NCBI GenBank assembly: GCA_012031225.1
Contig: JAAUTZ010000013.1
Location: 1 to 53,095, forward strand
Source of the DNA: Chloroflexaceae bacterium
GTDB lineage: Bacteria; Chloroflexota; Chloroflexia; Chloroflexales; Chloroflexaceae
Reading direction: 5' to 3'
Length of the DNA: 53,095 nt
The notes beneath the pieces are model-generated. The model saw only the letters and a list, made by a program, of their open reading frames with translations, was not told where the DNA came from and ran no database searches. How positions within the stretch are numbered: the first letter of the stretch is position 1; each line of letters begins with the position of its first letter. The translations under genes were made by a program, and so were the position numbers. This document shows positions 76-11,583 of the stretch, in pieces.

Positions 76-590
76 ATGGAGTACGAGCGCGAGGCGATGT
101 GGGCGCAGCAGGAAGGTGAAGGGAGTCAAGCGTATGCGGCATTTGGGGTGTATTGCGAATTGGGGGCGCGGCGTTCGCTGAAGCGGGTGGCAGCGCAGTG
201 TGGCATCCGCGAGGCGGTGGTGCGGCGGTGGTCGCGGGCGCATGCGTGGCGGGAGCGGGTGCGGCGTATGACCGCGAGCAGGAGCAGCAGGCGGCGGCGG
301 CAGAGGCTCCGCGCTGGCGGGAGCGGATGGCGGCAGAGGTGGAGAACGAATGGCTGGCGGCGGAAGCGATGATGGCGCGGGGCAATGAGATGTTGGCGAG
401 TTCGGTGGAGGCGACGCGCTGGACGTGGCGGGATGCGATTCTGCTGATTGACCATGCGGCGAAGGTGGCGCGGCTCGCGTTGGCGGCGGGCTTGGATAGC
501 ACGGCTCCCGCCGATGTGACGGTGAAGGTGGAGTATGTCAACGAGGCAGACGGTGCGGCAGACGGGGCATCGCCGGATGCCGAGCGGTGA
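76..590 (+). pseudogene. Phage terminase small-subunit-like protein, broken by a frameshift
   Basis: The first half starts at ATG 76, behind a purine-rich GGGGAGGG ribosome site, and carries a helix-turn-helix-like stretch (about residues 33-60, ending in WSRAHAWRERVR) typical of small terminase subunits that bind packaging-site DNA. Near 262-267 the frame must move by -1 to continue into DREQEQQAAAAEAPRW and the rest of the protein, which ends at 590. Adding one base gives an open frame of 171 residues. The gene lies directly before the large terminase and overlaps its start, the usual order. The N-terminal half of the second frame (from 153) is a shadow and was not used. The assignment rests on position and the HTH-like region; sequence conservation in this family is low. 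Confidence 0.6.
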
Positions 591-1785
591 GGTGCGGGTC
601 GTATTGCCGGCATTGCACCCGGCCCAGCAGCATGTGCGGGCAACGGCGCGGCGGTTTAATGTCGTGTGCTGTGGGCGACGCTGGGGCAAAACGACGCTAG
701 GGATTGAGCGGCTGCTGGTGGCGGCATTGGCGGGGCAGCCGGTGGCGTGGCTTGCACCGACCTACCGCATGCTGGGTGAGGTGTGGCGGCAGCTGGTGGA
801 GCGGACGGAGCCGATTACGCTGCGGCGCAATCAGCAGGCCCACCGGCTGGAGCTGCTGACGGGCGGGGTGATTGAGCTGTGGAGTATGGAGCATCCCGAC
901 CGGCTGCGGGGGCGGTGGTATGCGCGGGTGGTGCTGGATGAGGCGGCGATGCTGCGGGATGCGGCGCAGGTGTGGCAGCAGGTGGTGCGCCCCACCTTGA
1001 CGGATCGGGGCGGGGATGCGTGGTTGCTCTCGACCCCGCGTGGGCACAACTTCTTTTGGCAGTGTTATCAGCGAGGACAGCAGCATGACGGCGAATGGCA
1101 AAGCTGGCAGATGCCTACAAGCAGCAACCCCTACATTGCGGCGGCGGAGTTGGCCGCGGCGCAGCGCGAGTTGCCCGCAGACAGCTATGCACAGGAGTAT
1201 GCCGCCCAGTTTGTGGAGACGGGGCGCGGGGTGTTTCGGGGCGTGTTGGCGGCGGTAGGGGCTACGCCGGAAACAGGGGCAACGGCGGGGCACGCCTATG
1301 TGATTGGGGTGGATTGGGGGCGGCAGCAGGATGCTACCTGCTTTGCGGTGCTGGATAGCACGCGGCGGTGCTTGGTGGCTCTGGAACGTTGGCCCCAGCG
1401 CGACTATGGCGAGCAACTAGAGCGGCTCCGCGATCTGGCCCGACGCTTTGCGCCGGATGTGATTCTGGCTGAGCAGAACGGGGTTGGGCTGCCCTTGATT
1501 GAGCAGTTGCAACGAGCGGGCGACCTACCGATCCAGCCCTTTACCACGAGCAATGCGAGCAAGGCGGGGCTGATTGAGCGGCTGGCCTTGGCACTGGAGC
1601 AGGGGCAGTTGCAGTTGCTGGATGATGCGGTGCTGTTGGATGAGTTGCAGCAGTTCAGCGCGGAGCGGTTGCCGTCGGGGGTGGTGCGCTACACTGCGCC
1701 GCCGGGCCATCACGATGATTGTGTGATGGCGGTGGCATTGGCGTGGCACGCCGCCGGTTCAGCGTCGGATCTGGTGCTGTGGTGA
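577..1785 (+). CDS. Phage terminase large subunit (TerL)
   Basis: This is the ATPase and nuclease that pumps and cuts phage DNA into proheads. In 402 residues I see Walker A GRRWGKT (33-39), Walker B VVLDEA with D121/E122, the coupling motif LLSTPRG (150-156), and a RNase H-like nuclease domain with acidic residues at D246 (GVDWG), E299 (AEQNGVG) and D380/D381 (HHDDCVMA). All catalytic groups are intact. I chose ATG 577 over 535 because the extra upstream residues are the small-subunit end read out of frame, and 577 gives a 14-bp overlap with that gene. The next gene is the portal, so this is a standard packaging module. Confidence 0.93.
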   Translation: MPSGEVRVVLPALHPAQQHVRATARRFNVVCCGRRWGKTTLGIERLLVAALAGQPVAWLAPTYRMLGEVWRQLVERTEPITLRRNQQAHRLELLTGGVIELWSMEHPDRLRGRWYARVVLDEAAMLRDAAQVWQQVVRPTLTDRGGDAWLLSTPRGHNFFWQCYQRGQQHDGEWQSWQMPTSSNPYIAAAELAAAQRELPADSYAQEYAAQFVETGRGVFRGVLAAVGATPETGATAGHAYVIGVDWGRQQDATCFAVLDSTRRCLVALERWPQRDYGEQLERLRDLARRFAPDVILAEQNGVGLPLIEQLQRAGDLPIQPFTTSNASKAGLIERLALALEQGQLQLLDDAVLLDELQQFSAERLPSGVVRYTAPPGHHDDCVMAVALAWHAAGSASDLVLW

Positions 1786-1790
1786 GGGGG

Positions 1791-1837
1791 CCTGAAACCT
1801 GACCCCTGAAACCTGACCCCTGAAACCTGACCCCTGT
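1791..1837. repeat. Heptamer array (CCTGAMM) between terminase and portal
   Basis: A period-7 array alternating CCTGAAA and CCTGACC units fills the gap. It ends just before the GAGAGGAG ribosome site of the portal gene. Only one orientation is present here. Confidence 0.85.
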
Positions 1838-1853
1838 GAGAGAGGAGCAGAAG

Positions 1854-2969
1854 ATGTACACCATGTTTGATGGGGCATCGCGCAGTATGGCGGATTTGGT
1901 GCGCGATGAGACTGCGCCCCTGACGGCGGTGCAGGCGTATAGCTGTGTGCCCTACCTGTATCGTGCGGTGGATGTGCGGGCGAAGGCGGTGGCGGGGATG
2001 CCCTTTTGCCTGACGCGCCTGAGCGATGGAGCCGATCTCGGCGATACCCCAGACGGGCGGCGGGTATTGGCCCAGATCCGCACGCGCCTGTATCAGACCG
2101 AAGCGGATCTGTGTTTGCACGGGGAAGCCTTCTGGCTGAAGCAGGTGAGCCGTGCCGGTGCGCCGCTTGCGCCGCGCCGGGTGCTGCCGCGCAGTATGCT
2201 GCCGCGCTACGATGCTGTGCAGGGGATTGTGGGCTATGAGCGGAGTACGGCGGCGGGCCCGCACGGCTACGCGCCGGACGAGGTGATCGCGTTTGGGCAG
2301 CCGAACGTGGTGGGCGAATTGGGGGCGGGCACCCCGCCCGCGCAGGTGGCACTGGCGGCGGCAGCGGTGCTATACCAGTTGGATCGTTTTAGTGAGGGCT
2401 TCTTCCGGCGGGGGGCGATTCGGGCCACGCTGTTGACGGTGGAAGGCAACCCTAGCCGCGCTGATCTGGAGCGGCTGGAGATCTGGTGGCGGCGGCTGGT
2501 GACGGGCGTGCGGCGGGCGTGGGAGAGTGTGGCGATCCGCAGTAGTGTGCGTCCGGTGGTGATTGGGGAGGGGCTAGAAGCTCTCGCCAACCAGCAGCTT
2601 ACGGCGCAGCTACGGCAGGATGTGGGCGCGGCGTTGGGCGTGCCGGAGACATTGCTCACGGCGAATGCGGCGAACTATGCGACGAGCCTTGCGGATCGGC
2701 TGAACTTCTACGATATGACGATTGTGCCGCAGACGCTGCTGATTGCCGAGTCGCTCAATACGCAGTGGCTCGCTAGTTGGGGCATGCAGTTTGCCTTTAT
2801 GCCCCAGCAACTCGAACTGTATCAGGCGGCAGAGGTGCAGAAGGCGCAGCAGATCGCCGCGCTAGTGGGCGAGCCAGTGTTGACGGTGAATGAGGGGCGG
2901 GCGTTGCTAGGCTATGCCCCACTGGAGCAGGCGGCCGGCGGCGAGGGCGATGGGCAAGGGGTCAGGTGA
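1854..2969 (+). CDS. Phage portal protein (HK97 type)
   Basis: The portal forms the dodecameric ring at the capsid vertex through which DNA enters. The 371-residue protein has the early motif AYSCVPYLYRAVDVRAKAVA (about 25-45), a central region with DEVIAFGQPN, and the portal signature around LGVPETLLTA followed by YATSLADRLNFYDMTIVPQ (about 265-305). A short C-terminal VNEGRALLGYAPLE matches the usual end of HK97-type portals. ATG 1854 is preferred over GTG 1836 because a clear AGAGGAG lies upstream. The last codons and the stop run into the heptamer repeat (GGGGTCAGGTGACA), so the C-terminal tail appears to be repeat-derived. Confidence 0.9.
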   Translation: MYTMFDGASRSMADLVRDETAPLTAVQAYSCVPYLYRAVDVRAKAVAGMPFCLTRLSDGADLGDTPDGRRVLAQIRTRLYQTEADLCLHGEAFWLKQVSRAGAPLAPRRVLPRSMLPRYDAVQGIVGYERSTAAGPHGYAPDEVIAFGQPNVVGELGAGTPPAQVALAAAAVLYQLDRFSEGFFRRGAIRATLLTVEGNPSRADLERLEIWWRRLVTGVRRAWESVAIRSSVRPVVIGEGLEALANQQLTAQLRQDVGAALGVPETLLTANAANYATSLADRLNFYDMTIVPQTLLIAESLNTQWLASWGMQFAFMPQQLELYQAAEVQKAQQIAALVGEPVLTVNEGRALLGYAPLEQAAGGEGDGQGVR

Positions 2970-3048
2970 CAGGTGTCAGGGGGAAGCGAGTGACCAAGAT
3001 CAGGTGTTGCGCCTGTTTCATCTGAGACCTGAACCCTGTGACCTAGAA
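2957..3048. repeat. Facing heptamer arrays between portal and protease-capsid gene
   Basis: GGGGTCA, GGTGACA and GGTGTCA units on the left face TGAGACC, TGAACCC and TGTGACC units on the right. The result is an imperfect inverted repeat that could fold into a stem. The left arm overlaps the portal stop codon. Confidence 0.75.
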
Positions 3049-3063
3049 GAAAGGAGTTGGTGC

Positions 3064-4629
3064 ATGCTCCAAATCCACAACCGCTCGCCGGATGGGGCGG
3101 GCCCAGTGCGGGTGGCGGGCTACGGGATCATCTTTGGCGGGCACGATCTGCACGGCGATCAGTTTACGCCTGCAACAGATTTTGGGCTGCTGCGCGAGGT
3201 GCGCGGCATGGGCGTGTATTACGATCACGGGCAACGCACGCCGCGCCAGCCGATTGGCACGGTGCGCCACGTCCACGCCGATGCAGTGGGCCTATGGTTT
3301 GAGGTCGAGCTAGATCGCCACTGCGCCTACCGCGATGCGCTGCTGAAGCTGATCGAACGCGGGGCGTTAGGCTTCTCGACGGGTGCGTTGGCGCACCTCA
3401 TCAAGCGGCAGCAGCAGACGATCACGCGCTGGATTATTGGCGAGATCTCACTCACCCCCGCCCCCGCCGAGCCGCGTTGCTTGGGGGTGCAGGTGGCGGA
3501 TACGACGAATGGACACGATAGCGGACGCATACATCAGAAAGGATTGGGCCCGATGCAAACGAACGAAAGCAATGCGACTGGGGGCGAGCATACCGCACTG
3601 ACCCAGATCAGCGATCAACTCGAAGCTGTTGCGGCACGGATTGAGCGGGTGGAGCAGGTACTAGATGCGCCTGTGGGGAGCAGTGCCTACCTGTTGCCGA
3701 GCCAGAGCAATGCCGCCAGCGAGGCTGCGCTGAAGTCGTTCACGCGCTATCTTCGCAGTGGCGTGAAGGCTGCCCTGCAAGAGGATACGCTGGGCGAGGG
3801 TGGCTACCTTGTGCCGCCGGCCTACAGCCGTGAATTGGTGCAGGCACTGGGCACGATGAGCGTGCTACGCCAAGCGGGGGCGCGGGTGCTACGGATTGCG
3901 GGGACGAATAGTATGAAAGTGCCCGTGCTGAATGCCAGTAGTGCGGCGGTGCTGACACTGGAAGAAGGCACATTCAACGAAGCGGAGCCGACCTTTGAGC
4001 AAGTTGAGTTTAAGCCCTACAAGTACACGCGGCTGGCAAAGGTGAGTGATGAACTGCTCGCGGATAGCGGCGTAGATATTGTGGCAGGGGTGCTGTTGCC
4101 CGACTTCGCGCAGGCTTTCGCCAAAGCCGAGAATACCGCCTTTGCGACGGGCACGGGCACCAACCAGCCGCAGGGCGTGGTGACGGGCGCAACGGTGGTG
4201 GATACGGCGACGGCGGCGACGTTTGCGGTGGATGACATTTTGCGGCTTTACCACGCCCTGCCGCAGATCTACCATCAGCAGGCGGTATGGCTGATGAATG
4301 ATGCGGTGGCGCAGGTGATCCGTAGCTTCAAGGATAGCACGGGCAACTACTTGTGGCAGCCGGGCTTGGCTGAGGGCACACCGGATCGCCTACTGGGGCG
4401 GCCTGTGTATCGCCTGAATACGATGAGCAATCAGCTCACGGCGGCTCAGAAGATCATCGTGTTTGGCGATCTGAGCTACTACTGGATTGTAGATTTTGGG
4501 CAGGAGACGCTCAAGCGGCTGGAGGAGCTGTATGCTGCAACGGGACAGGTCGGGTTCCGGGCCTACCGCCGCGTGGATGGGCGGGTGGTGCTAGCGGATG
4601 CGTTGCGGGTGTTGCGCGTGAAGGCGTAG
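3064..4629 (+). CDS. Prohead protease fused to HK97-fold major capsid protein
   Basis: One 521-residue frame joins two head genes that are usually separate. Residues 1-150 are an HK97-type prohead protease (S78-like), with the candidate catalytic His at 55 (YYDHG) and Ser at 105 (GFSTG). Residues about 165-210 are a coiled delta/scaffold segment (LTQISDQLEAVAARIERVEQ). Residues about 220-521 are the capsid fold, with GEGGYLVPPAYS, KVSDELL, TGTGTNQPQG and a C-terminal IVDFGQETLKRLEELYAATG. ATG 3064 follows an AAAGGAG site; the upstream in-frame stretch is repeat sequence. A second ribosome site and ATG at 3553 would release the capsid half alone as 358 residues. The protease matures the prohead by removing the scaffold segment. 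Confidence 0.92.
   Translation: MLQIHNRSPDGAGPVRVAGYGIIFGGHDLHGDQFTPATDFGLLREVRGMGVYYDHGQRTPRQPIGTVRHVHADAVGLWFEVELDRHCAYRDALLKLIERGALGFSTGALAHLIKRQQQTITRWIIGEISLTPAPAEPRCLGVQVADTTNGHDSGRIHQKGLGPMQTNESNATGGEHTALTQISDQLEAVAARIERVEQVLDAPVGSSAYLLPSQSNAASEAALKSFTRYLRSGVKAALQEDTLGEGGYLVPPAYSRELVQALGTMSVLRQAGARVLRIAGTNSMKVPVLNASSAAVLTLEEGTFNEAEPTFEQVEFKPYKYTRLAKVSDELLADSGVDIVAGVLLPDFAQAFAKAENTAFATGTGTNQPQGVVTGATVVDTATAATFAVDDILRLYHALPQIYHQQAVWLMNDAVAQVIRSFKDSTGNYLWQPGLAEGTPDRLLGRPVYRLNTMSNQLTAAQKIIVFGDLSYYWIVDFGQETLKRLEELYAATGQVGFRAYRRVDGRVVLADALRVLRVKA
3536..3555 (+). promoter_or_regulatory. Internal ribosome site and start for the capsid half
   Basis: AGAAAGGA (3536-3543) sits nine bases before an in-frame ATG at 3553, exactly at the protease/scaffold boundary. 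Translation from here would give a separate 358-residue capsid protein, so one frame could supply both a fusion and an excess of free capsid subunit. This is inferred from sequence only. Confidence 0.6.
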
Positions 4630-4633
4630 GGGG

Positions 4634-4871
4634 CAGGTGTCAGGTGCTAGGGGTCAGGGGTCAGGGGTCAGGTGCTAGGGGTCAGGGATCAGGGGTCAGG
4701 TGCTAGGTGGTAGGTGCTAGTTCTACCCTTCATACCTATGACCTGACACCTATTGCCCATTGTCAATCACCAGCCAGCCAACAGCATCGAGCTTTATACC
4801 TATAACCCGACACCTGACACCTATAACCTGACACCTGACACCTATAACCCGATACCTGACACCTGACACCT
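4634..4871. repeat. Large facing heptamer arrays before the connector gene
   Basis: The left arm (about 4634-4720) is built of GGTGTCA, GGTGCTA and GGGGTCA units. The right arm (about 4734-4760 and 4794-4871) is built of the complementary TGACACC, TATAACC and CCCGACA type. A non-repeat spacer lies at about 4760-4793. The arms together form a long imperfect inverted repeat in a 276-base gap that otherwise holds no gene. Confidence 0.9.
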
Positions 4872-4905
4872 TGTGCTAGGGATAAACAGAAAAGGAGCAA
4901 CATTT

Positions 4906-5439
4906 GTGTATCTCAGTGTTGCGGATGTGAAAGCCTATCTCGGCATTGCGCCCACGCACACCGGCGATGATGCCTTGCTGACGGTGCTGCTCGAAGCGGC
5001 GGTGAGTGCGATTGAGCGGGCGTGTGATCGGCAGTTTGCAGCGGCACCGGCAACGACGCGCAGCTTCGAGGCGGCCCAGCACGCAAGTCGCACGCTGCTC
5101 TATCTTGATGCCGAGCTAGCCCAACTTGCGAGCATTGCCAATGGCGATGGGCAACCAATCGAGCTGCACCACGTCCTGCTGCTGCCGGATGAGCCACCCG
5201 CGTTAGCATTGCTGCTGCGCCCTGAGGCGGGCTTGGTGTGGCGCGGCACGGTGCAGGTGGGCGGGTATTGGGGCTATAGCCTCAGCCCACCTGCGGCGAT
5301 TGTGCAAGCTACCCGCGAGTATGTCGCCTACCTTTATCGTGGCTACGATCAGCAGGTGCAGCAGCCTGAACGGGGCGACCTGCACCGCCTACCCGCGCAT
5401 ATCCGCGAGCTACTCGCGGGCTACCGGAGGTTGCGCTAA
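4906..5439 (+). CDS. Phage head-tail connector (gp6-like)
   Basis: The protein of 177 residues starts YLSVADVKAYLGI and has DALLTVLLEAAVSAIERACDRQF, the hallmark of gp6-type connectors that sit under the portal and close the head. The rest includes a beta-rich middle and an ATREYVAYLYRGY helix near the C-terminus. I chose GTG 4906, which follows AAAGGAG (4891-4897) by eight bases. An earlier in-frame start at 4873 lies in repeat DNA. The stop overlaps the next ATG (TAATG), so the two genes are translationally coupled. Confidence 0.8.
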   Translation: MYLSVADVKAYLGIAPTHTGDDALLTVLLEAAVSAIERACDRQFAAAPATTRSFEAAQHASRTLLYLDAELAQLASIANGDGQPIELHHVLLLPDEPPALALLLRPEAGLVWRGTVQVGGYWGYSLSPPAAIVQATREYVAYLYRGYDQQVQQPERGDLHRLPAHIRELLAGYRRLR

Positions 5440-7175
5440 TGTGGAGCATCATCAGTTCTGATGGGCAAACGGTGAGCCTTGCCGCGCTGAGTGTGCAGCT
5501 TGCACACAGCACCGCCCGCACGGCTGTGCCGCCCGCCATGCCCGAACTAGGCGAGTTGCCGCCTGCGCCATTGTTGACCCTGCACCTGCACAGCCGCACG
5601 CGCCACAGCGATCTGCCTGCGCTGCGCCGTCGCCTGCTTGCGCTGCTCAATCCGGCGCAGGCTGGGGCCACGCCAGCGCGGGTGCAGTATGGGCTGGGCG
5701 GCACGGCTTTGGAGCTAGCGGTGCGGTATGCGGGCGGCTTGGATGATCTGCCGCACGATCACACCCTGACGATCCAGTTTGTGCCAGATGCCCAAGCGTG
5801 GCACAGCACCGCCAGCACTACGCAGAGCATCGTTTGTGCTAGCAGCATTGCCAACGCCGCTTACCTCTTGGAGCAAACGCCGGATGGGGTGTGGCAGAGT
5901 AGCAGCAGCTTGAACGGGGCCGTCAATGCGCTGCTCGTGTTGCCAGATGGCACGCACTTGATCGGGGGTGAGTTTAGCGGCTACGTGCGCCAGCGTAGCC
6001 ATCCGGCGGGCGCGTGGCAGACGCTGGCTGGGCTGAATGGCGCGGTGACGTGTTTGGCGGCACTGGGCGATGGGCGCATTGTGGCGGGCGGTTCCTTTAC
6101 CACCCCCGCCAGTGCGCTGGCGCTGTGGGCCGGTAGCGCGTGGCAGGCGTTGGGCGTGCCCGCGCTAGTGCCATTGGCTATGGCCGTGAGCTATAGCGGC
6201 ACGCTGTATGTCGGCGGCATAGATCTGGGGGCGGGTAGTAGCGTGCTGGCGTGGGATGGCAGCGCGTGGCAACCGCTCGGTGCGGGGCCGGGCGGCGCGG
6301 TGCATGCGCTGCTGCTCGATCAGAACGATACGCTCTATGCGGGCGGTAACTTCGCGGGCGGGGTAGCCTATTGGCAACTTGGTGCGTGGGTCACGCTGGG
6401 TGGGGGTGTGGCTCGTATCCCTGCTAGCGCACCCCCGACGGTCTCCGCGCTAGCGGGTGCGCCGGATGGCAGCATCTACGCGGGCGGCGATTTTGCGCTG
6501 GCGGGCGGTGGCTCTGCGCCCAACCTTGCCCGTTGGACAGGCTATAGTTGGGAGCCGCTCGGCTTGGGGCTGAGCGGCACGGTGCGCTGCCTTGCCGGAG
6601 CTGCTGCACGGAACGGGAACGGCGGGCTGCTCTGGGCGGGTGGGGCATTCACGGCGGCGGGCGGGCGCACCCTCCCGGCCCGGCTGGCGGGCTGGAATGG
6701 CGCAGAGTGGCTGCCGGTGCCAATCCGGTTGCACCCCAGTGTTGCGCCGCAGGTGGTGGCACTGGCGCAGCTGCCGGATGGCACGCGGCTGGTGGGCTAT
6801 GGCGGCAGTGGCATGGCCCACGTCCCCGCCATCAGTACCATCACCAATCACGGCACCGCGCCCGCCTATCCGGTGCTAACCCTCGCAGGCGCGGGAACGG
6901 TGCAGCAGCTGGCCAATCTTCGCACCGGGGCAACGATCACCTTCGCCAATCTGAGTTTGAATCCGAATGAGCAGCTCACGTTGGATCTACGCCCGGCTAC
7001 ACGCGGCGTGCATAGCTCGCTGCGCGGGAGCCTAGCGGGCGCACTCGTGCCCGGCTCCGATCTGGGGGCGTGGTGCTTGCTGCCGGGCGAGAACCGCATT
7101 GCCCTGTTTGCCGATCAGCCCAGTGCCACGCTGGAGTGGCACTCACGCTACTGGAGCTATGCCGATGCCGAGTAA
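5439..7175 (+). CDS. Dit-like distal tail protein with inserted beta-propeller
   Basis: This 578-residue protein looks like a siphophage distal tail (Dit) protein split by an insertion. Residues 1-140 are the N-terminal tail-tip domain. Residues about 470-578 resemble the usual Dit C-terminal domain, with NPNEQLTLDLRP, SDLGAWCLLPGENRIALF and LEWHSRYWS. Between them (about 145-465) lie seven repeats marked by GG at 176, 217, 259, 302, 349, 401 and 455, spaced 41-54 residues apart, in the pattern LPDG-IYAGGxF-W-G-W-LG. That fits a seven-bladed propeller. Such a domain on a tail tip could bind a cell-surface ligand (inference). The gene overlaps both neighbours. Confidence 0.75.
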   Translation: MWSIISSDGQTVSLAALSVQLAHSTARTAVPPAMPELGELPPAPLLTLHLHSRTRHSDLPALRRRLLALLNPAQAGATPARVQYGLGGTALELAVRYAGGLDDLPHDHTLTIQFVPDAQAWHSTASTTQSIVCASSIANAAYLLEQTPDGVWQSSSSLNGAVNALLVLPDGTHLIGGEFSGYVRQRSHPAGAWQTLAGLNGAVTCLAALGDGRIVAGGSFTTPASALALWAGSAWQALGVPALVPLAMAVSYSGTLYVGGIDLGAGSSVLAWDGSAWQPLGAGPGGAVHALLLDQNDTLYAGGNFAGGVAYWQLGAWVTLGGGVARIPASAPPTVSALAGAPDGSIYAGGDFALAGGGSAPNLARWTGYSWEPLGLGLSGTVRCLAGAAARNGNGGLLWAGGAFTAAGGRTLPARLAGWNGAEWLPVPIRLHPSVAPQVVALAQLPDGTRLVGYGGSGMAHVPAISTITNHGTAPAYPVLTLAGAGTVQQLANLRTGATITFANLSLNPNEQLTLDLRPATRGVHSSLRGSLAGALVPGSDLGAWCLLPGENRIALFADQPSATLEWHSRYWSYADAE

Positions 7176-8514
7176 CTACACCCTCTGGCTGTATAGTGCG
7201 TGGGGCACACTGCGCGGCGTGTTGCCGGATGTGTTGCACCTGCGCTATCGGCGGGTGGTCAACCAAACCGGCCACTACCGCGCCGAGCATGTCGCCAATC
7301 GGTTGCCGTGCCGCATCGTGGTGCGCCACTCTGCCGCACTGCTACCGCTGCTCGAAGCTGATAGCCGGATCGAGATTTGGCGCGATGGGCGGCTCGAAAT
7401 GGAGACGTGTTGGCTGGTGCAGCGGGTGCGCGTGCGGCATACGGCGGGCGGTTCCGCCGTGATCGAGATTGGCGCAGTGCCGGCACTCAGCCTGCTGGAG
7501 CGGCGCATTGTGGCGTATGCAGTGGGTAGCCCGCAAGCCGAGCGCACCGCCCCCGCCGATGTGCTGCTCAAGGCACTGGTGCGTGAGAATTGGGGCAGTG
7601 CCGCCAGCGATCCCACCCGCAACCAGAGCGATTGGCTGCGCGTAGCACCGGATGCGGCCAGTTTGGCGACAGGTGGGGCGGCTCCTGTGATTGCGCTTGC
7701 CACAGCACGGCAAGTGCTGCTCGATGTTGCCCATCAAGCGAGTGCCGCCGCCCACGCCGCAGGCACGCTGCTCCGCTTTGATGTGGTGCGCCACACGCCC
7801 GCGATGCTCGAATTTCGTACCTATCTCGGCGCACGCGGCACAGATCGCACCCATCCGGCGCGGCAGTTGGTGCTTACGCCGGATACGCCGGGCGTGCAGC
7901 AGATCAGCTTCAGCGACGACTATGAAGATACCATTTCGCTGGTGTATGCGGCTGGGCAAGGAGCCGAACGCACGCGCCAGATCGTGACGTTGGGCGACCC
8001 CGCCCGCATTGCGCGGAGTCCGTTTGCGCGGCGCGAGCGATTGCTCGATGCGCGTACCGCCCACGACGACGCGCAACTGGCGACAGCTGCGCAGCGTGCG
8101 CTTGCGAATGGGCAGCCGCGCCAGACCGTGCAGGTGCAGCTTCGCAGTGTGGCGGGCTTTGCCTACGGGTGCGAATGGGCGTGGGGGGATCGGGTGCTGG
8201 TGGCGGTGGCGGGGCGGGTAATCCCCGCGACGATCACGACGGTTGAGGTGCAGGTGACGTACAGCGTGGCGGGGGTGCAGGAGCAGATCACCGCGCTGCT
8301 GCATGCTGATGCGCTCCCGCTTGCCCCAGCTAGCCCTAGCGTCACCGCCACCGATGAAACCGAAATTACCTTTCAGCAGATTCAGCGGGGAGCCGTGCCC
8401 GCCGTTAGCCAGCTCACTATCCCGACACAGGCCCAGTTGCTCATCTACGGGCGGTATCTCGTGGCAGGGCGGCTTGAGCTAGAGGCGGCGGCGCAGTTGG
8501 TGGTGCTGAATTAG
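7165..8514 (+). CDS. Siphovirus Gp37-like tail-tip protein
   Basis: This is a 449-residue beta-rich protein resembling the ReqiPepy6 Gp37-like family, which normally follows Dit and forms part of the tail tip or baseplate hub. Supporting features are the N-terminal YTLWLYSAWGTLRGVLPDVL, a middle segment with RQVLLDVAHQASAAAHAAG, FRTYLGARGTDRTHP, and SDDYEDTISLVYAAGQG. The C-terminal 60 residues end in a small hydrophobic beta segment. ATG 7165 is chosen because TGGAG lies eight bases upstream; ATG 7159 is the alternative. It overlaps the Dit stop by 11 bases. It is the last phage-like gene before host genes on the opposite strand. Confidence 0.7.
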   Translation: MPSNYTLWLYSAWGTLRGVLPDVLHLRYRRVVNQTGHYRAEHVANRLPCRIVVRHSAALLPLLEADSRIEIWRDGRLEMETCWLVQRVRVRHTAGGSAVIEIGAVPALSLLERRIVAYAVGSPQAERTAPADVLLKALVRENWGSAASDPTRNQSDWLRVAPDAASLATGGAAPVIALATARQVLLDVAHQASAAAHAAGTLLRFDVVRHTPAMLEFRTYLGARGTDRTHPARQLVLTPDTPGVQQISFSDDYEDTISLVYAAGQGAERTRQIVTLGDPARIARSPFARRERLLDARTAHDDAQLATAAQRALANGQPRQTVQVQLRSVAGFAYGCEWAWGDRVLVAVAGRVIPATITTVEVQVTYSVAGVQEQITALLHADALPLAPASPSVTATDETEITFQQIQRGAVPAVSQLTIPTQAQLLIYGRYLVAGRLELEAAAQLVVLN

Positions 8515-8522
8515 GGGGGGCA

Positions 8523-8576
8523 GGTGCTATGCTAGGTGGCAGGTGGTAGGTGGCAGGTTTCAGGTGACAGGTAACG
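8523..8576. repeat. Left heptamer array at end of phage-like module
   Basis: Units GGTGCTA, GGTGGCA, GGTGGTA, GGTTTCA and GGTGACA follow the last phage-like stop codon. They face the array at 8678-8761. Confidence 0.85.
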
Positions 8577-8588
8577 AGCCGAGCCAAT

Positions 8589-8633
8589 CACGAAGAACAC
8601 GAAGGGCATGAAGAACTCGAAGGATACGATGGT
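8589..8633. repeat. Nonamer tandem repeat
   Basis: Five degenerate 9-bp units (CACGAAGAA, CACGAAGGG, CATGAAGAA, CTCGAAGGA, TACGATGGT) lie between the two heptamer arrays. The unit differs from the heptamers in sequence and period. Confidence 0.8.
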
Positions 8634-8677
8634 ATGGGTTGTCTTCGATGTAGCGTATGCCTTGCTTGCGTACAAGC

Positions 8678-8761
8678 TGACACCTGTCTCCTGAAACCTC
8701 GCCACCTGCCACCTGATACCCGACACCCGTCACCTAGCACCTAGCACCTGCCCCCGTCACC
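8678..8761. repeat. Right heptamer array at end of phage-like module
   Basis: TGACACC, TGAAACC, TGCCACC, TGATACC and TAGCACC units run up to the stop codon of the convergent DsbA-fold gene. They are the reverse complement type of the array at 8523-8576, so the pair could form a stem between convergent genes. Confidence 0.85.
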
Positions 8762-9421
8762 TTACGGATTGGGGCGTTTGATCTCTGCCAGCCACCGCCG
8801 CCCGGTAAAGCTCTGGCGCAGGTTCAGAAAGAACGGCAGCGCATCTTCCAGTGGCGGCACTTCTTCCAGCTTCAGGTAGATCGCATTCTTATCATCGAAG
8901 CAGATCGTCGGCACACCAAAGGCACTGTACTTCGCTACACCTTCGGTGTGATCGCGGCGCAGTGCATCAAGATGCTTGGGATTGTAGAAATCGGCGAGGA
9001 ACTGGTTCAGGTCGAGGCTGGCCTCGAGGGCAACAGCTTCGAGCTTGCGCCGATCAGTTAAGCGAAAGCGGGGGCTGAGGCTATGCTTGTGGATTGCGCT
9101 GAACAGGTGTCCCCGAAAACGATTGAATGCCTCATCGCCCTGCTGCCGGGCGGCCTCTGCCGCCCAGAAAGCCAGCAAGCCGCGATGGTCGCTGTTCCAC
9201 TCTGGGCTGGGGTAGGTGTAGTTTTCCGGTTGCTCCCAGATCTTCCAATCGTCCACGGCGGCAGGCAGATTGCTCTGCTCCAATGAGAAGTATTTCCAAT
9301 TGACGATGAAGTTGCGTTCGCCGAGCTTCTGCTTGACTTGATCGAGCCAGATCGCAGCCCGATTGGTGTAGGGGCACATAAAATCAATGAATACCGTAAT
9401 TTCGATGGGGTGTTGTGCCAT
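8762..9421 (-). CDS. DsbA-family thioredoxin-fold protein
   Basis: The 219 residues open with ITVFIDFMCPYTNRAAIWLDQV, the beta strand, active-site loop and helix of the DsbA/FrnE/HCCA-isomerase fold. A helical insertion follows, then a cis-Pro loop AFGVPTICFDD near residue 170. The active-site loop is CPYT, with one cysteine rather than CxxC, so a disulfide-exchange role is uncertain and an isomerase or transferase role is possible. No signal peptide is seen, so it is likely cytoplasmic. AAGGAG precedes the ATG. It is convergent with the phage-like module and probably not part of it. Confidence 0.8.
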   Translation of the reverse strand: MAQHPIEITVFIDFMCPYTNRAAIWLDQVKQKLGERNFIVNWKYFSLEQSNLPAAVDDWKIWEQPENYTYPSPEWNSDHRGLLAFWAAEAARQQGDEAFNRFRGHLFSAIHKHSLSPRFRLTDRRKLEAVALEASLDLNQFLADFYNPKHLDALRRDHTEGVAKYSAFGVPTICFDDKNAIYLKLEEVPPLEDALPFFLNLRQSFTGRRWLAEIKRPNP

Positions 9422-9465: not shown

Positions 9466-11583
9466 CTATTCACGATTCCGACTCCGGTAGACCTGACTGC
9501 CCTCCTCAATATGCCACGCACTGCGGGCATTCCCCGTAAGATCACACTCCTCGATCCGGCCCATGCTTTGGTCATGCACCCAAATTGCCACAATCCCGTG
9601 CTGCTGCACTTTGCAGTGGCGCAGGGTTGGGTTGCTGCCCTGCCGTATATCCACGCCAACCCGTTCACTGCTAACGATAGCACAATGCTCGAAGAAGCCG
9701 AAACTATGCTCGGCAATCAAGACTCCGCGCTGACGTTCGTGGTGGATGTGGGTTGCCCGTACAATCGGATTGCTACCCTGCACAATCCCGATGCCAGCTT
9801 TGCCATTGTTGGAAATATCGCACGCATCAATAAAGCCCGCGCCGTGCTCAGCTACCAGAATACCATAGCCCTGCGCGTGGTCGCGGATCGTGCAGCCGCG
9901 AATCAGCGGGTTGCTGCCCTGCTTCAGCTCAATACCGGCCCGGCCATTATCGAAAATATCGCACGCCTCGATCACCCCACTGCTCTGTTCGGCAATCGAG
10001 ATGCCGTGATGTGCGCCCGCATACATACGACATCGGCGCACTGTCGGCGCACCGCGACTACGGATCGCAATGCCTGCGCCGGCACTCCCCTGAATGTCGC
10101 ACTCCTCGATCACGCCGCGCCCCTGCTCGCTCACGCGAATACCCTCGCCGCGCGCACTGTGGATCTGACACCGCCAGATCAGCGGATTGGCAACCTCGCC
10201 CTGTATTGCAATGCCCACCGCCCCGCCAGCCACTATCGCGCAGCGTTCCAAGATCAGCCGCCCCTGCCCAATCTGCACCACCGCAAATTGGGTCTGCTTG
10301 GGGGTAGCGGCAACACTCCGCAAGGTTAGCCCGCGCACCACGGCATAGTCGGTCTTCATCAGCAGGCTGCTGCTGCCCTGTGCCTCAATCACAATATCGT
10401 CCGGTAGCCCATCGCCGAGCAGTTCAAGGGGCTTATCAAGCACGACCTGCTCGGTGTACACGCCGGGCCGAATCACGATGCGCGAATTTGGTTGGGCATT
10501 CTTGATCGCCGCGCCAATCGTCTGGTAGAAGCCCTCGTCGTGTTGGGAGACAATCAAGACCGCCAAAACCGGAATCTCAGTAATCGAAGGGCGCACCATG
10601 CTGTGGTGCAGATCTGGCTCATCGGCTTCGAGCGGATCGGTCTGGGGCGCGAGATCAGTTGGTTGCGTGGGGGCTGGGGGCGCGGCGACAATGGTGGCCA
10701 TGCCGCTACTATTCAAGTTGCCGGTCGGCTGGGAAGTCATCCGCGCCGAGCGCAACGCGGCTCGCATCAGGCTGGCCCCACTGAAGCGGCGCGTGATGCC
10801 ATTCGCCAATGCGGTATCGAGGACTGCCGCCACCGCCGCCGGAATAGCCGGATTGAGTTGGTGCGCGGGGATCAGTGGGTCGGGCTTGCCCCCCAGAATA
10901 GACACGGCCCGGCTGAGCGAATTGGCTGGCGGCTCGCCGGTGAGCAGGTGATAGAGCGTTGCGCCGAGCGAATATACATCGCTGCGGGCATCCGTGCCCG
11001 TGCCTTGGATCTGTTCAAACGGGGCATAATCGGTGGTGTAGGCCCGCACACTCTGCCCACTCGACGTGTTGGTATTCACGAGGCTTTTGGCTAGCCCGAA
11101 ATCCAGCAGGATGATCTCGCCGCGTGAGGTGATCTTCAAGTTTTGCGGCTTGATGTCACGGTGGATCACAGGGGGGGCGCGGTGGTGCAGATACTCCAGT
11201 GCATCGAGCAGCCGATCTGCCCAATCCAACACCTGCTGCACCCGATCTGGCGTGGTGAACGCATCCGGCTGGCGATCCAGCAACGCCCCCAGATCTTCGC
11301 CGTCAATGTGCTGCATCACCAGAAAGCGGCCTTCGGCATCGCCAAAGTAATCGCTGACGGTGGGTAAGGCGGGGTGGCGCAGGCTAGCGAGCAACCGCGC
11401 TTCACGCTCGAAGGCTTTCTGCATGCGCGGCTGCTCCAGCACAATCTGCTTCAGAGCCACCACATTGCCAAGCCGTTGATCCACCGCACGATAGACTGCG
11501 CCCATGCCGCCGCGTGCGATCAGTTGCTCAATCAGGTAGCGTTCCTGTAAAACTGTCCCGACTGGGAGTACCCGTTGTTTCAT
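9466..11583 (-). CDS. Ser/Thr protein kinase with C-terminal right-handed beta-helix
   Basis: The kinase domain (residues about 15-275) has the glycine loop ARGGMGAVY, Lys45, the catalytic HRD (141-143) with HRDIKPQNLKI, and DFG at 161-163, so it should be active. A proline-rich linker (about 290-330) leads to a parallel beta-helix (about 345-695). That domain begins with a pectate-lyase-like segment (TIGAAIKNAQPNSRIVIRPG) and continues with roughly 23-residue CASH/NosD-type repeats such as GSNPLIRGCTIRDHAQGYG. I see no transmembrane segment, unlike most PknB-type kinases, so it appears cytosolic. The beta-helix may bind partners or carbohydrate-like ligands (inference). Confidence 0.9.
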   Translation of the reverse strand: MKQRVLPVGTVLQERYLIEQLIARGGMGAVYRAVDQRLGNVVALKQIVLEQPRMQKAFEREARLLASLRHPALPTVSDYFGDAEGRFLVMQHIDGEDLGALLDRQPDAFTTPDRVQQVLDWADRLLDALEYLHHRAPPVIHRDIKPQNLKITSRGEIILLDFGLAKSLVNTNTSSGQSVRAYTTDYAPFEQIQGTGTDARSDVYSLGATLYHLLTGEPPANSLSRAVSILGGKPDPLIPAHQLNPAIPAAVAAVLDTALANGITRRFSGASLMRAALRSARMTSQPTGNLNSSGMATIVAAPPAPTQPTDLAPQTDPLEADEPDLHHSMVRPSITEIPVLAVLIVSQHDEGFYQTIGAAIKNAQPNSRIVIRPGVYTEQVVLDKPLELLGDGLPDDIVIEAQGSSSLLMKTDYAVVRGLTLRSVAATPKQTQFAVVQIGQGRLILERCAIVAGGAVGIAIQGEVANPLIWRCQIHSARGEGIRVSEQGRGVIEECDIQGSAGAGIAIRSRGAPTVRRCRMYAGAHHGISIAEQSSGVIEACDIFDNGRAGIELKQGSNPLIRGCTIRDHAQGYGILVAEHGAGFIDACDISNNGKAGIGIVQGSNPIVRATHIHHERQRGVLIAEHSFGFFEHCAIVSSERVGVDIRQGSNPTLRHCKVQQHGIVAIWVHDQSMGRIEECDLTGNARSAWHIEEGSQVYRSRNRE

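Follow-up and report, generated by a model that had tools for sequence, protein, structure and literature searches.

The 53,095-nucleotide stretch of Chloroflexaceae DNA analysed here (the window) begins with a phage-type structural module in which packaging, head and adaptor genes are followed directly by two tail-tip genes, and no tail tube or tape measure is recognised among them. Our preferred reading, to which we give a probability of about 0.48, is that the module derives from a siphophage and may have been retained by Chloroflexales hosts as a very short-tailed, GTA-like particle that packages DNA, as gene content and sequence comparison suggest. More tentative, and on balance doubtful, is the fuller proposal that a siphophage became a host-kept, short-tailed packaging particle that spread through the Chloroflexales and represents a GTA type operating on adaptor, Dit and hub alone.

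The window corresponds to bases 1–53,095 of the 57,731-base contig C170, which belongs to a genome (G000) of 4.2 Mb and 97% completeness. Window position 1 is the contig end, and nothing is readable to its left; the contig starts near GGGTCAGG/CCTGACA-type repeats, which may explain the assembly break. A first-pass annotation had assigned packaging, head and tail-tip genes to positions 76–8514, and both the gene content and the coordinates hold according to Pfam and phrog profile matches. Its further claim that host genes follow directly on the other strand is likewise borne out by the feature list, where these are a DsbA gene and then a kinase:

76–590, plus strand: terminase small subunit (TerS; phrog_6299, E 1e-14 on the first part)
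535–1785, plus strand: TerL (PF17289, E 1e-10; PF03237; phrog_2, E 1e-42)
~1854–2969, plus strand: portal (PF04860, E 3e-27; phrog_2662)
3064–4629, plus strand, likely start at 3064: S78 prohead protease and HK97 major capsid protein in one fused ORF (PF05065, E 2e-69; PF04586, weak; phrog_10/2263)
4630–4872, no strand: spacer of GGGTCAGG-type repeats
4873–5439, plus strand: head–tail adaptor, or connector (PF05135; phrog_442, E 1e-17; alignment)
5439–7175, plus strand: Dit-like distal tail protein into which a 7-bladed beta-propeller is inserted (phrog_5577/106/33)
~7159–8514, plus strand: tail hub of the Sipho_Gp37 family, gp27/VgrG-like fold (PF14594, E 2e-17)
8762–9421, minus strand: host DsbA-family protein, right flank (PF01323)
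9466–11583, minus strand: host Ser/Thr kinase, right flank, syntenic in genomes G001 and G011

TerS is frameshifted in the G000 assembly, where it occupies two frames (76–372 and 153–590), possibly through a sequence error in this MAG; it is a single intact ORF in the sister species G001 and is open in the available part of L098. The listed portal ORF runs from 1836, and an ATG at 1854 is preceded by AGGAG. As had been claimed earlier, the catalytic residues of TerL and of the protease are intact. The ATPase and nuclease motifs of TerL (GRRWGK, DEA, D260, E313 and D394/D395) are all present, with motif residues invariant across relatives, and the S78 protease retains its His, its Ser and the Glu of “GEISLTP”, which are conserved in tube-less relatives. 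The best solved sequence relative of the capsid is that of RcGTA (6tba, E 9e-24), and the adaptor profile gave no clear match to solved structures. Neither a stopper, terminator, tube, chaperone or tape-measure gene nor a lysis, integrase or repressor gene was recognised between the module genes or before DsbA, and the window holds no tRNA. A defence library search gave no match for the module, the neighbouring kinase matching kinase-type models only; this kinase has a long, repetitive C-terminal part with the look of a beta-helix. In a phage collection searched with TerL, distant relatives alone were found, with <34% identity among the matches listed.

The two proteins at the distal end of the module were also compared by fold. 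The single-chain AlphaFold model of the Dit-like protein (pLDDT 86) places a 7-bladed propeller at about residues 148–457, between N- and C-terminal parts, and profile searches match the C-terminal part to Dit and minor tail families. In Foldseek, the single-chain model of the hub (pLDDT 78) matched gp27-like hubs known from baseplates, tail tips and VgrG, with E values to 5e-16. On this basis both proteins are read as tail-tip parts, and the idea that either conceals a tail tube was rejected.

In siphovirus prophages, a tube and a tape measure lie between the adaptor and Dit genes; both are absent from this position in the window and in the related loci. About ten further loci with the same tube-less set were found in five Chloroflexales genomes and in metagenome contigs, so that the full list comprises the window, G001, G011, G016, G018, G040, L077/L099, L078, L079, L241 and L243. 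Most of the genomes are MAGs, several of the loci lie on MAG contig fragments, and the copy in G011, a low-coverage assembly, has frame breaks. The gap between adaptor and Dit is filled by short or fibre-like ORFs, or by none, in all of these loci except L243, where the gene order is shuffled. Profiles for the tube and tape measure were built from tailed relatives, some of which also served as test rows. They gave matches upstream of Dit in 18 of the 21 tailed relatives and none in ten tube-less loci. In two of the three remaining tailed relatives, adaptor and Dit are >3 kb apart; the third is cut off.

Genome-wide searches gave a similar picture. The tube profile, the tape-measure profile and PF10145 had no match anywhere in G001, G011, G016, G018 or G040, whereas tailed genomes were matched; the completeness of the negative genomes is 86–99%. 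In G000, the tape-measure profile and PF10145 likewise found nothing, and the tube profile gave a single match, on the 4.4-kb contig C146 (L236), which comes from a distinct tailed phage that has a tape measure of its own. This match is a caveat for the absence result in G000 and not for that in the other genomes. Together, C146 and C152 (L055), each of ~4 kb, carry tube and tape-measure genes and an additional protease-capsid gene, all from one or more separate tailed phages.

The hub itself is not confined to tube-less elements. It is present in 10 of 82 genomes of the order, some of them tailed, and a search of 400 genomes across the phylum added two hub matches to that of the window: one is accompanied by a tube and tape measure, and the other lies on a 3.6-kb contig that is cut off before the tube region. 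Tailed relatives such as those in G049 (C367), G065 (C6) and G071 (C61) have a homologous propeller Dit and hub, and in G049 homologous head genes as well; unlike the window module, which has neither, they have a tape-measure gene ahead of Dit, plus a tube where one was detected.

Phylogenetic analysis places most tube-less elements together. In the Dit tree, ten tube-less rows fall on one side of a branch with support of 99/97, and in the hub tree six of seven such rows form one clade (98/97), the placement of L079 not being resolved. A quick TerL tree agrees in part, its tube-less group also taking in a few contigs whose tail status is unknown. The clustering in the Dit and hub trees fits one loss, and on these sequence comparisons a single loss of the tube block is favoured, though it is not proven for every member. 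The window shares with G001, G011, G040 and L079 a one-base overlap between the adaptor stop and the start of Dit; across these five lineages the overlap appears to be an operon junction kept over deep divergence.

Comparison of synonymous and non-synonymous changes had been proposed in the first-pass annotation. By the simple Nei–Gojobori method, applied to the single species pair G000 and G001, dN/dS is 0.06 for TerL, 0.11 for the portal, 0.09 for the protease-capsid, 0.18 for the adaptor, 0.17 for Dit and 0.20 for the hub, versus 0.02–0.19 for ten host genes. Values of dS are 0.22–0.36 for the module and 0.24–0.51 for the host genes. The module genes are thus under purifying selection, like host genes. 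In addition, the module ends beside the same DsbA gene in both species, a link that in G001 is made by two contigs overlapping at the hub end. Purifying selection on phage-derived structural genes and inheritance with the host, which are expected of a GTA, are therefore both seen here in dN/dS, dS and the shared locus. The spacers of the module (1–75, 1786–1853, 4630–4872 and 8515–8760) contain GGGTCAGG/CCTGACA-type repeats that also occur in many other places in G000, and the arrays differ between G000, G001 and L098; such host-type repeats fit long residence. The earlier annotation had offered a reduced prophage, a GTA-like particle or a domesticated particle, and it is domestication that gains from the locus shared with G001, the purifying selection and the single tube-less cluster. 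Occurrence in one strain with flanking attachment repeats, which it had named as a contrary outcome, is not what was found.

The location of the module differs between genomes, as does its internal order. In G011, kinase, DsbA and dipeptidase genes adjoin without a module between them, and the module lies elsewhere in that genome. The site occupied in G000 and G001 is therefore empty in G011, which suggests that the module moved or was gained more than once. A dipeptidase-like ORF, the next gene after DsbA in other genera, was searched for in G000 and not found. In L099 and L100, the TerS of the module adjoins a host Rrf2 gene; the Rrf2 site was considered as the locus of the window and rejected, other genes being present there in G000, G001 and G011. 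In G018 the module is split: TerS and TerL lie close to purine genes on a separate contig, and host genes flank the remainder, from portal to hub. The order in L243 is adaptor, capsid, fibre-like, portal, Dit and hub. Thus the gene set appears to be kept where order is not, and the tube-less cluster spans two host families at differing loci.

Flanks that are visible in relatives bear on what may lie to the left of the window. No integrase, replication gene or repressor was recognised among the scanned flank ORFs of the G018 and G040 loci, and no att-like exact repeats of at least 14 bases were found across the compared flank stretches of either. A full tail and lysis set just upstream, the other outcome that would have told against the first-pass annotation, is not seen in these two: in G040, a holin (PF05105) and an amidase (PF01510) lie shortly before the terminase, without a tube or tape measure, and a pectate-lyase-like tail spike lies downstream. 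The absence of neck, tube, tape-measure, lysis, integrase and repressor genes noted by that annotation stands for the window, and for lysis genes it does not extend to the whole family, given the holin and amidase of G040. Tail-fibre-like proteins adjoin the tip genes in G018 and L077; none is seen in the window. Several other features of these loci were observed. In the hub ORF of G040 (L022, 7960–10008), the hub is fused to a long N-terminal extension that has the look of an esterase/hydrolase domain. Upstream of TerS, both G011 and G018 have a small zinc-ribbon-like ORF (L019, 125–349; L054, 7497–7730), which seems to resemble the Com proteins of Mu. Finally, a second TerL fragment on contig C110 of G011 (L061, 149–1066) is nearest to the G018 TerL in the tree and is followed by host-like ORFs, with no recognised portal.

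TerL pumps DNA via the portal into the protease-matured head, and beneath the portal lies the adaptor ring. The distal end of the tail tube is normally capped by Dit and hub, and siphophage assembly needs a stopper, tube and tape measure. Under the preferred reading, a siphophage structural module would have shed the genes for neck, tube and tape measure, and hosts would have kept the rest, namely TerS, TerL, portal, protease-capsid, adaptor, Dit-propeller and hub, often with fibres or spikes. TerL would then fill the heads with DNA, and the Dit ring and hub would sit directly under the adaptor ring to give a stubby, podovirus-like tail, the simplest geometry without a tube. The receptor would be bound through the propeller or fibres, and particles would exit by lysis, with the genes for it beside the module in G040 and presumably elsewhere or absent in others. 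Such particles would most likely carry host DNA from cell to cell in the manner of GTAs. The good conservation of TerL and portal makes DNA packaging the likeliest selected function and a GTA-like role the likeliest use. Points against a retained particle are the lack of a recognised stopper to hold packaged DNA, the TerS frameshift in G000, the patchy distribution and the difference in locus between genera.

Some of these points would also suit a decaying prophage remnant, in which one old deletion was followed by slow loss and the intact ORFs are incidental; the TerS frameshift, the patchy presence, the spacer repeats and the TerL fragment on C110 of G011 are all consistent with it. Decay is nevertheless unlikely, as dN/dS is well below 1 in all six genes compared, the gene set has survived deep divergence, shuffling (L243) and splitting (G018), and the adaptor–Dit overlap has been kept. 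A domesticated particle used not to transfer DNA but, for example, to kill, to act as a decoy or to adhere via its propeller tip would account for the large propeller, the lectins among its fold matches and the lack of known DNA-ejection parts, but we regard it as very unlikely, since the conservation of TerL and portal noted above points to DNA packaging.

Two further explanations are each quite unlikely. A short-tailed virus lineage that lost its tube as a virus, rather than in a host, and is seen here as integrated copies would explain the presence of one cluster in two host families at different loci, as well as the lysis genes and tail spike of G040. It sits poorly with a locus shared by two congeneric species, the host gene beside TerS in L099 and L100, the absence of recognised integrase, replication and repressor genes beside flank-visible loci, and contig size, all tube-less viral contigs found being <10 kb whereas those of tailed relatives reach 82 kb. 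The other is a helper-dependent satellite that produces and packages heads of its own and takes its tail from a tailed phage resident in the same cell, in the style of cf-PICIs or Streptomyces satellites. The gene set does resemble the packaging and head modules of cf-PICIs, which are without tails (PMC10690885), and G000 also contains C146, a piece of tailed phage with tube and tape-measure genes, as well as a second capsid gene on C152. Yet the module keeps Dit and hub, which would come with a borrowed tail; neither an integrase nor a replication gene is recognised beside the G018 and G040 loci; and G001, G011, G018 and G040 have no tube or tape-measure match.

A lineage without stopper, tube and tape measure in which packaging, portal, adaptor and tip genes stay under selection would imply either that a Dit–hub tip can sit directly on a head, which would offer a way for long tails to evolve into short ones, or that hosts keep DNA-packaging particles for another use. 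The module would also be a candidate gene-transfer particle for the Chloroflexales, where the papers found report few phages; short, incomplete prophages have been described in Chloroflexales MAGs (PMC8597652). A search of an open literature library, which is weak evidence of novelty, found no description of such a tube-less set.

Among known systems, RcGTA is similar in that phage-derived head genes are kept by the host, and its capsid is the closest solved sequence relative of the module's capsid. RcGTA encodes a tube, a tape measure and a complete neck, all of which are missing from the module; of a GTA-type delivery tail, the module has the tip and adaptor, without neck and tube. The cf-PICIs encode terminases, portal, protease, capsid and connectors and no tail (PMC10690885). 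The module likewise has its own terminase, portal, protease, capsid and connector, and differs from cf-PICIs in its conserved Dit-propeller and gp27-like hub, its shared locus in two species and the lack of a recognised integrase or replication gene beside the G018 and G040 loci. The Streptomyces satellites Mulch and Flayer have capsid, packaging and adaptor genes without a tail, and MiniFlayer has short tail fibres (PMC10690885); unlike the module, Mulch and Flayer are known satellites of virulent phages. In Lactococcus lactis TIFN1, siphophage-derived particles are released tailless (PMC8752148). That element is a prophage of a single species, in contrast to the module, which belongs to a cluster that spans genera and has lost its tube block.
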